Shown: in pieces, positions 1,582 through 24,952 of the stretch
Position numbering within the stretch: the first letter of the stretch is position 1
Layout of the letters: each line of letters starts with the position of its first letter
Virus record (IMG/VR): IMGVR_UViG_3300021365_000036
Span: 1-42,894 of that record
DNA from: a virus
Direction: 5' to 3' (one strand)
Length of the DNA: 42,894 bases
Made by a program: the position numbers and the translations under genes
Notes under the pieces: model-generated
What the model saw: only the letters and a program-made list of their open reading frames with translations
Databases searched by the model: none
What the model was told of the DNA's origin: nothing

Positions 1582-2970
1582 ATGTCAGATAAAAGATTAG
1601 AGTTTGTAATACTGAAAAACTTAGTCAAAGAAGATGTCTTTGCTAGGAAAACACTGCCATTCATTCAAGATGAATACTTCGCAGAAAGAGACGAAAGGTA
1701 TGTCTATGAGCAAATCAGAGAGTACTTCACCAAGTACAATACCATTCCTACAGTAGAAGCATTGGGCATAGAACTTGATAGTGCATCCATGAATGATGCA
1801 GACTACAAGTTGACCAAAGTCATTCTTGACAAACTTTACAAAGACAAAGATGATACACCTCTTGATTGGTTAATTGAACAAACTGAGAAATGGTGTAAAG
1901 ATCGTGCTATCTACAATGCTGTTATGGACAGTATTGAAATCTTAGATGAGAAAGGTAAAAGATCGCAAGGTGAAATACCAGACTTACTCAAAGAAGCATT
2001 GTCTGTATCTTTTGACACTAACATTGGTCATGACTTTTTGATTGACAGCGATAGGAGATATGACTTCTATCATACTGAGGAAGAAAAACTTCCTTTTGAT
2101 TTAGATTACTTTAACAAGATTACTAAAGGTGGTCTACCTAATAAAACATTAAACATAGCACTAGCAGGAACAGGTGTGGGTAAAACTTTATTCATGGGTC
2201 ATGTTGCTGCGAACTGTTTAATGATGGGCAAGAATGTTTTGTACATCACAATGGAGATGGCAGAAGAAAGGATTGCTGAAAGAATCGATGCGAATCTACT
2301 CAACATACCTATGAGAGAGTTGACAGACTTACCAAAGGATATGTATGATAAGAAGATCGAAAGGTTAAGAGAAAAGACTAAAGGCAAACTGATCATTAAA
2401 GAGTATCCTACAGCAGGTGCTCATGTGGGACACTTTAGACATCTGCTACAAGAGTTAAATCTAAAGAAAGATTATAAACCTGACTTGATTGTTATTGATT
2501 ATCTAAACATTTGTACTTCATTCAGAGTGCGTCCAGGATCTAATGTTAACTCTTACACTTTGGTGAAGAGTATTGCTGAAGAACTGAGAGGATTAGCAGT
2601 AGAGTTTGATGTGCCTGTGTTAAGTGCTACTCAAACCACAAGATCTGGATATAGTAATACAGATATTGATTTAACAGATACTTCAGAATCTTTTGGTTTA
2701 CCTGCGACTGCTGACTTTATGTTTGCATTAATTAGTAGTGAAGAACTAGAAGCATTAGATCAAATGCTAGTGAAACAGTTAAAGAATCGATACAATGATC
2801 CAACCATGAACAAAAGATTTGTAATGGGTGTGGATAGAAGTAGAATGAAACTTTATGACTGTGAACAAAACGCACAAGAAGAGTTGATTGATAATGGACC
2901 TGTGTTTGATAATACTAAAGCAGGCAAAAACTTAGGACAAAAATTCCAGGAGTTCAACTACGATGCGTAG
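1582..2970 (+). CDS. 41: gp41-like replicative DNA helicase (DnaB family)
   Basis: This 462-residue hexameric helicase unwinds the fork 5' to 3' and works with the gp61 primase encoded at 17.2 kb. An N-terminal helical domain (1-150) carries VKEDVFARKTLPFIQDEYF, like the N-domain of T4 gp41. The RecA-fold core has Walker A AGTGVGKT at about 195-202, the ITMEMAEERIAERIDAN helicase motif, and a Walker B-type strand PDLIVIDYLNI. Length and motif order match the DnaB/gp41 family. The ATG follows the preceding stop without a gap. Confidence 0.95.
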   Translation: MSDKRLEFVILKNLVKEDVFARKTLPFIQDEYFAERDERYVYEQIREYFTKYNTIPTVEALGIELDSASMNDADYKLTKVILDKLYKDKDDTPLDWLIEQTEKWCKDRAIYNAVMDSIEILDEKGKRSQGEIPDLLKEALSVSFDTNIGHDFLIDSDRRYDFYHTEEEKLPFDLDYFNKITKGGLPNKTLNIALAGTGVGKTLFMGHVAANCLMMGKNVLYITMEMAEERIAERIDANLLNIPMRELTDLPKDMYDKKIERLREKTKGKLIIKEYPTAGAHVGHFRHLLQELNLKKDYKPDLIVIDYLNICTSFRVRPGSNVNSYTLVKSIAEELRGLAVEFDVPVLSATQTTRSGYSNTDIDLTDTSESFGLPATADFMFALISSEELEALDQMLVKQLKNRYNDPTMNKRFVMGVDRSRMKLYDCEQNAQEELIDNGPVFDNTKAGKNLGQKFQEFNYDA

Positions 2971-3676
2971 AGTCTTAGAGTTAAGAGACATGATGATTGA
3001 TACTTATTTCAATCATTTTGAAAAGAAGATTTTGATTTCTCATTTTAAACATGGAACTTCTCTACTTACAGATACATTGAAAAACAATGGACGATGGATC
3101 TTCCACAAAACCAACATTGAGAATCTAGGATACGAACCCATAGAAGATGCGATTCAAGCAATGAGTCCTAGATATAAAGACTATAAAAAGTACATGACTT
3201 GGAGACCTGTAGATGAATCCTTTATCTCTGCTTTTTGTTATGAGATGAGAACAGGACTTTCTAATTTTATAGTTGATGAAACACAAACTGCTGAAGAATA
3301 CGAAAATATTTTAAGAGCATGGATAGAATTAGCAGGTGGTCCAGATAAAGTCATGAATCGATTCTTAACAGAAACCATAAATCGTAATGGTACATTCATG
3401 TCTATCTTTTATCCAGTATTGAATCATGATACAGCATTTAATTTGGTTGATCATATTGATGAGATTATCTTATTACCTGATCTTAAGAAATTTTTGATAG
3501 ATCATGACACAACTCCTCCAGAAGGAATCAGTAACCAAACCAAAAAACAATTACTCAATATCACAGAAAGAGTATTCAACGATCTAGGCATGCTTGATTT
3601 GCTTGCTAAGTTAACTCCAGAAACATACAAATATAAAGAACTTTTAAGACAGAAACCACTTTACGACACCCCCTAA
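2963..3676 (+). CDS. divergent sulfotransferase-like protein
   Basis: This 237-residue protein overlaps the helicase end by 8 bases. It resembles, weakly, the sulfotransferase fold. ILISHFKHGTSLL (about 23-35) sits where the 5'-phosphosulfate loop would be, and KKYMTWRPVDESFISAF (about 75-91) parallels YMTVRHPVSRFIS of the clearer homologue at 5695, with R81 and S89 where the 3'-phosphate-binding residues fall. These matches were read by eye; the family is extremely divergent, so activity is unproven. The last codons (LYDTP, stop) coincide with the -35 region of the early-type promoter at 3660. Without the second motif I would have called it unknown. Confidence 0.45.
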   Translation: MRRVLELRDMMIDTYFNHFEKKILISHFKHGTSLLTDTLKNNGRWIFHKTNIENLGYEPIEDAIQAMSPRYKDYKKYMTWRPVDESFISAFCYEMRTGLSNFIVDETQTAEEYENILRAWIELAGGPDKVMNRFLTETINRNGTFMSIFYPVLNHDTAFNLVDHIDEIILLPDLKKFLIDHDTTPPEGISNQTKKQLLNITERVFNDLGMLDLLAKLTPETYKYKELLRQKPLYDTP

Positions 3677-24315: not shown

Positions 24316-24351
24316 TATAATACTAGGAAAACAAATCATATAGGAGTGAAA

Positions 24352-24567
24352 ATGTCAAACTTAGCAAATGAAACAACCCTCGAAAGAATCTTCGACGAGG
24401 TCTCAGAAATGAACACTAGAAACATTCTAAGAGAATTAGATGGTGGTGTTAGCAGACCTGGATTGTGTGAATCTTTCGATATGAGAGTAGCAATGACTGA
24501 TAGAAATAAAGTTATTGATCTACTCGTTAACAAAAGATTTGAAGAATTACCAGATGGACCCTTTTAA
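24352..24567 (+). CDS. small early protein of unknown function
   Basis: A 71-residue acidic, helical product; ATG 24352 chosen because AGGAG lies 7-8 bases upstream. It begins MSNLANETTLERIFDEVSEM and ends KRFEELPDGPF. No recognisable motif. It is the only gene between promoter P3 and the hairpin at 24560, so it looks like an independently expressed single-gene early unit, typical of host-takeover proteins; that role is inference. Confidence 0.7.
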   Translation: MSNLANETTLERIFDEVSEMNTRNILRELDGGVSRPGLCESFDMRVAMTDRNKVIDLLVNKRFEELPDGPF

Positions 24568-24576
24568 TAAAAAGGG
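24560..24576 (+). terminator. hairpin overlapping the stop codon, possible terminator
   Basis: CCCTTTT and AAAAGGG pair across a short AT loop that contains the TAA of the preceding gene, followed by GTTT. The U-tract is short, so termination would be partial. The TTTACC -35 box of the next promoter begins right after it. Confidence 0.4.
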
Positions 24577-24577
24577 G

Positions 24578-24607
24578 TTTACCACACTGGTACTTTTTTA
24601 ATATGAT
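24578..24607 (+). promoter_or_regulatory. early-type promoter P4, upstream of structured RNA
   Basis: TTTACC (24578-24583), an 18-base spacer with ACAC and TACTTTTTTAA, TATGAT (24602-24607). A diverged member of the P1/P3/P5 family. Predicted transcription start near G24614, at the beginning of the structured RNA candidate. Confidence 0.65.
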
Positions 24608-24613
24608 AAACTT

Positions 24614-24743
24614 GATGATTGAGAAACTGATAACGAAAACTGCTAGACTGCTATGGGATCGGAATCAATCAAGAATCAAAAGTGAGGTTTCTGGAGTCTT
24701 CGGACTAGGGCAAAATGCCACTGTTAACCTCACACCCTTTTTT
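24614..24743 (+). ncRNA. candidate structured noncoding RNA / leader with three-way junction
   Basis: About 130 bases without a convincing frame lie between promoter P4 and a T6 tract. 5' domain: GATGATT (24614-24620) pairs with AATC-A-ATC (24663-24670), enclosing CTGAT (24627-24631) paired with ATCGG (24658-24662). 3' domain: GTGAGGTT (24682-24689) pairs with AACCTCAC (24726-24733), enclosing AGTC-TTCG-GACT (24695-24706), a C(UUCG)G tetraloop hairpin, and GGCA-AAA-TGCC (24709-24719). T6 at 24738-24743 follows. It could be a small RNA, or a regulatory leader for the membrane protein at 24764. No match to a class I know. Confidence 0.6.
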
Positions 24744-24763
24744 AATTTTACATAGGAGTGAAA

Positions 24764-24952
24764 ATGAAACAAATTGAAATAACAAAATTAAATCAAGACT
24801 ACTTTGATAAGACTATCAAAAAGATGAAAGACATTGATAGTGAAATCAATAAAACCAATAAGATGCTACAAGTTGCCTTTGGCATTTACTTGTTTGCAAC
24901 AGGTTTCTTACTAGCAATCATAATGTTTGACTTAGGAATCATGGTATTATGA
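24764..24952 (+). CDS. small single-pass membrane protein
   Basis: A 62-residue product; ATG 24764 has AGGAG 5-6 bases upstream. The first 36 residues are charged and coiled-coil-like (YFDKTIKKMKDIDSEINKTN), and the rest is a single hydrophobic helix (MLQVAFGIYLFATGFLLAII). It lies downstream of the structured RNA and could be controlled by read-through of its U-tract. It overlaps the next gene by 4 bases. Function unknown. Confidence 0.7.
   Translation: MKQIEITKLNQDYFDKTIKKMKDIDSEINKTNKMLQVAFGIYLFATGFLLAIIMFDLGIMVL

Follow-up and report, generated by a model that had tools for sequence, protein, structure and literature searches.

A candidate structured RNA upstream of a small membrane-protein gene in a T4-like marine phage

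The stretch of DNA analyzed here, 42,894 bases long and referred to as the window, is the virus record of a T4-like marine phage that encodes UvsX-like and DnaB-like proteins and an NrdA/NrdB pair. Its replicative helicase shares 61% identity with a cyanophage homologue and 59% with the homologue from pelagiphage HTVC008M. Between a gene for a 73-aa protein (ending at 24567) and a gene for a 62-aa membrane protein (starting at 24764) lies a compact unit at 24578–24743, which comprises a hairpin on its 5′ side, a promoter, an RNA of ~130 nt with two domains, and a T6 tract, followed by a ribosome-binding site (RBS) and the membrane-protein gene. All of these features are on the plus strand. An earlier, sequence-only reading of this DNA had described the promoter (P4), an 8-bp stem enclosing two hairpins, an upstream domain, the T6 tract and the RBS, and each was located where that reading had placed it.

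Relatives were retrieved from IMG/VR with queries from both sides of the RNA: the gene preceding it, and the membrane protein and deoxyribonucleotidase that follow it. Nearly the same RNA occurs in sixteen contigs, with differences almost entirely in loops. For example, L009 has UUAG in place of UUCG, L010 and L011 have lost one A of the last loop, and L019 differs at a junction base. Comparison of the window with L003 shows stronger conservation in the RNA (129/135 positions, 96%) than in the next gene (172/186, 92%) or the one following it (432/534, 81%). A second, divergent lineage is represented by contig L084, which agrees with the window at 80% in the deoxyribonucleotidase and 45% in the membrane protein. 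Its upstream gene is a different one (145 aa, 2918–3355, versus 73 aa at 24349–24567 in the window), and the RNA and downstream genes are retained. L084 keeps the entire unit: hairpin, 22-base promoter box, stem P1, conserved core, a P3 stem of nine pairs, two inner hairpins and a T5 tract.

Promoter P4 (24578–24607) has the form TTTACC-N18-TATGAT, with boxes at 24578–24583 and 24602–24607 separated by an 18-nt spacer. Twenty-two of its bases, TTTACCACACTGGTACTTTTTT, and their spacing are identical in the window and L084, whereas the other promoters of both phages carry TTTACGACACC. In both lineages, CCACACTGG replaces CGACACCC in P4, and the spacer region thereby gains a dyad, TACCA-CAC-TGGTA. 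The window contains TTTACGACACC without mismatch at five places, all on the plus strand (3660, 24286, 27130, 29124 and 39246). The first four share the box TTTACGACACCC-N-TTTTTA-N-TAYRAT with the −10 at its usual distance, and lie mostly directly 5′ of genes; L084 possesses two full promoter boxes of this family, also with the −10 at the usual distance. The box was absent from seven more distant T4-like loci that were checked, and it looks like a lineage-specific promoter family. P4 had been called an early-type promoter; the promoter sequence is there, but the early type is unsupported, P4 being a variant of the TTTACGACACC family. Judged by its sequence, its conservation in two lineages and its distinctness from its neighbors, P4 would give the RNA a promoter of its own, a putative variant within the phage promoter family that is reserved for this unit.

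Where the upstream gene ends, a 7-bp hairpin, CCCTTTT(AATA)AAAAGGG (24559–24576; −9.6 kcal/mol), abuts P4. L084 has a hairpin of different sequence in the same place, GGGATTC(ATTAA)GAATCCC (−11.4 kcal/mol), and no comparable hairpin accompanies the other promoter sites tested (five in the window and two in L084), where values reached at most −2.9 kcal/mol. The hairpin is a possible insulator or terminator, and together with P4 it makes the whole look like an insulated, separately controlled unit.

Domain 1 is closed by stem P1 (24612–24679), in which 24612–24616 pairs with 24675–24679 and 24617–24622 with 24665–24670 (TTGAT+GATTGA with TCAATC and ATCAA). The predicted transcription start, ~24614, falls within the 5′ strand of P1, and the two outer pairs may therefore be absent from the transcript. 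L084 keeps the same 5+6 bp plan with entirely different letters (GACTC..AAACTC/GAGTTT..GAGTC). The second domain that had been suggested to fold from the GATGATT region corresponds to this stem. Shuffled sequences matched the P1 energy in 7 of 5000 cases for the window and 28 of 5000 for L084. This support is thermodynamic, since the model skipped most of the L084 P1 and the stem is poorly represented in the structure-fitted alignment. The large loop of domain 1 contains a 26-nt conserved core, ACGAAAACTGCTAGACTGCTATGGGA (24633–24658), which in L084 reads ACGAAGATTGCTAGGTTGCTATGGAA and is preceded by an extra hairpin between P1 and the core.

Domain 2 (24682–24733) is a three-way junction formed by P3, GTGAGGTT/AACCTCAC (24682–24689/24726–24733), P4h, AGTC(TTCG)GACT with a UUCG loop (24695–24698/24703–24706), and P5, GGC(AAAAT)GCC (24709–24711/24717–24719). 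The last of these had been drawn as GGCA(AAA)TGCC, which is indeed present at 24709–24719 but is better drawn with the shorter stem. The junction bases CUGG (24691–24694), AG (24707–24708) and ACUG (24720–24723) are identical in L084. According to the sequence-only reading, the absence of compensatory changes in relatives would speak against the RNA; such changes were found in P3 (three), P4h (two) and P5 (two), so that 7 of the 15 junction pairs are double compensatory changes relative to L084. P3 is paired in 98% of alignment cells, compared with 27–62% when slid, and the nine perfect pairs of the L084 P3 were equalled in 16 of 200,000 shuffles. Across all helices of the structure-fitted alignment, 97% of cells are paired and 8 of 26 pairs are doubly changed (1.1 ± 1.0 in shuffles and 0–2 in slid controls), a figure that amounts essentially to one comparison, between two lineages of which the divergent one is a single 6-kb contig. 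A covariance model trained on the window type with L084 left out (R1) scored L084 at 36.2 bits (E = 2.2e-7), and a sequence-only model (R2) scored it at 17.8 bits. Taken by itself, the fold energy is only slightly out of the ordinary (z = −1.86 for the window, with 7 of 200 shuffles as good, and z = −1.98 for L084); it is the comparative evidence that raises the RNA above chance.

The likely 3′ end is the T6 tract at 24738–24743, 4 nt 3′ of P3. In L084, a T5 tract lies at the matching position, 2 nt past P3, giving both lineages a terminator-like end with a branched stem. The three-way junction and T tract could thus form a branched intrinsic terminator. A terminator scan, which allowed only loops of 3–8 nt, did not call this end, and the 4-nt gap between stem and T tract in the window is non-canonical. 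The junction domain is single-copy in every other member and duplicated in tandem only in L018 (3765–3883, 57-nt unit), where the first copy maintains P3 through two G-U pairs and a T tract follows the last copy only.

Searches bore out the earlier impression that the RNA matches no known class, whether by Rfam, by tRNA calling or by comparison with described phage RNAs. No Rfam 15 covariance model matched anywhere in the window at gathering cut-offs, and raising E to 10 added nothing but a fragment of STnc100 on the opposite strand, at 13.6 bits against a cut-off of 47. ARAGORN found no tRNA or tmRNA gene in the window. No homologue with the RNA was seen in cultured phages (the remaining matches were short, with E of 0.3–0.9), and 22-mers from the core and promoter were absent from 84,980 species genomes. 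In IMG/VR, a core 16-mer was confined to the two known lineages, apart from apparent chance or coding matches such as ...ARLLW.... Neither 73 T4-like loci with a 72–76%-identical NrdB nor the other whole records searched contained the RNA beyond these lineages. Weak model matches in L308 and L311 were rejected as lying inside coding genes without a good P3, and those in L302 and L303 as scoring <12 bits with P3 mostly missing. The core did not pair with phage start regions clearly better than shuffles did (13 of 200 as good), the search for exact antisense matches returned none longer than 12 nt, and no target or partner of the RNA was found. Most likely, the structured RNA at 24578–24743 is real but narrow, restricted to a single phage group, and it looks like an undescribed structured phage RNA of a general kind that is already known.

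Two side observations were also made. Near a match to TGCTAGGATGCTATGG, three unrelated phage contigs (L182, L187 and L212) share a strong hairpin, TAGCGTCC-TGCTA-GGATGCTA, that is followed by a CCTGC..GCAGG hairpin shortly 5′ of a gene, possibly another structured RNA. Separately, the T4-like phage contig L311 encodes, at 107–2850, proteins resembling curli-type repeat and CsgG-like secretion proteins.

Downstream of the T tract, an AGGAG RBS (24754–24758) precedes the ATG of the 62-aa membrane-protein gene (24764–24952). The protein has no confident Pfam or PHROG family and no endoribonuclease or HEPN homology, and neither it nor the neighboring proteins contain a ToxN/CptN/TenpN or AbiF domain. 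Wherever an IMG/VR contig is long enough for both to be seen, the RNA is accompanied by this gene (17 of 17), and the same gene lies 3′ of the RNA in both lineages, which are only two and broadly syntenic. No promoter-like site is listed for the interval that separates the T tract from the gene. Every transcript that reaches the gene therefore crosses the terminator-like junction, which in turn probably sets read-through.

The comparison shows that the layout and the single-stranded bases are conserved, that the helices covary, that the special promoter is kept in both lineages and that the RNA co-occurs with the membrane-protein gene. On balance, and by a slender lean, the unit is read as a phage structured RNA gene of ~130 nt whose product is mostly terminated and acts as RNA, with leaky read-through supplying the downstream genes. 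Transcription would start at P4, near 24614, and produce a two-domain RNA ending mostly at T6, with the three-way junction serving as a branched terminator. The RNA would probably bind a protein or other partner through a likely contact surface made up of the core and the junction bases CUGG, AG and ACUG. Leaky read-through would provide mRNA for two downstream products, the small membrane protein and then the deoxyribonucleotidase, in which case the RNA also sets their level in cis.

A less probable, still plausible alternative is that the RNA is a cis-acting leader, either riboswitch-like or a protein-controlled attenuator, whose sole role is to control transcription of the membrane-protein/deoxyribonucleotidase operon. 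The promoterless interval after the T tract agrees with this, as do the invariant company of RNA and gene in the 17 contigs despite a different upstream gene, the conserved unpaired bases within covarying helices, a feature characteristic of leaders that bind a ligand or a protein, and the position of the phage's other promoters directly 5′ of genes. However, co-occurrence in two lineages weighs little where whole neighborhoods are conserved. When P3 was forbidden in folding, no competing antiterminator pairing appeared in the window or L084, at a cost of 10.5 and 14.9 kcal/mol, although a protein-dependent antiterminator would still be compatible with this. Domains 1 and 2 stayed folded in every model tried, and in extended folds neither sequestered the RBS. 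Since no competing antiterminator fold was found, an autonomous terminated RNA is mildly favored over a classical attenuator, and the preference for a mostly terminated, acting RNA over a leader alone is modest. The sequence-only reading had left the choice between an independent small RNA and an attenuation leader; a self-contained attenuator loses ground for want of a P3-breaking fold, but control of read-through is likely with no downstream promoter in view. Autonomous action and cis control of read-through can both apply together.

It is improbable that the RNA is the partner of the membrane protein in a type III toxin-antitoxin or RCd22-AbiF layout, restraining the protein in cis and trans. 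The promoter-RNA-terminator-gene order is shared with such loci, the tandem repeat in L018 recalls them, and RNA and gene co-occur strictly, but the 62-aa protein has none of the expected nuclease homology and repeats are missing from all other members. Equally doubtful is a new RNA class paired with a phage small membrane protein, combining termination in cis with direct binding or other action in trans. If true, the pair would be a membrane-protein counterpart of RNA-antitoxin loci, one relative carrying the RNA module in duplicate. Least likely of all is chance folding or the remnant of a small coding gene, for which the mildly low fold energy and a 50-aa ORF (24603–24755), open in most close relatives, might be cited against the covariation and the structure-dependent model match to L084. 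The interval had been described as having no coding frame, which overlooks this ORF but is right in substance: the ORF lacks an RBS, shows five non-synonymous and two synonymous changes between the window and L003, is frameshifted in L010 and L011 (from different metagenomes) and has no matching frame in L084, and it was rejected as a protein-coding gene.

Few structured RNAs have been described from lytic marine phages, and most are without known function. The preferred RNA gene is testable: its layout is clear, it has covariation support, its conserved unpaired bases suggest where a partner may bind, and a small gene is linked to it.

Several known systems resemble the unit in part. In ToxIN, RNA, terminator and gene are expressed from one promoter, and the ToxI RNA consists of repeated pseudoknots. 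The present unit is similar to such type III toxin-antitoxin RNAs in its arrangement under one promoter and in the duplication of the RNA unit in L018; it differs in being single-copy in all other members, in its three-way junction and in having no ToxN-like protein. A closer parallel in gene order is RCd22 at the abiF locus of phage phi027, a C. difficile prophage (Rfam RF03085, abiF motif), where a promoter, a structured RNA of ~100–130 nt, an intrinsic terminator, an RBS and a gene follow one another with no further promoter; both terminated RNA and read-through have been shown, the short form being dominant (PMC12373285). RCd22 starts 168 nt before its ATG, compared with a predicted ~150 nt here, and has a repeated RNA motif (PMC12373285), comparable in this group to the tandem domain of L018 alone. 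Unlike RCd22, the present RNA has no abiF motif match and precedes a gene for a tiny membrane protein rather than AbiF. The manA, wcaG and PhotoRC-II motifs are likewise structured RNAs of marine T4-like phages, found upstream of genes in cyanophages (PMC2864571), and the present RNA matches none of them in Rfam even at E up to 10. Finally, CfrI of the lytic marine cyanophage S-PM2 is a small RNA antisense to psbA (PMC12197685), whereas the RNA described here is intergenic and on the coding strand.
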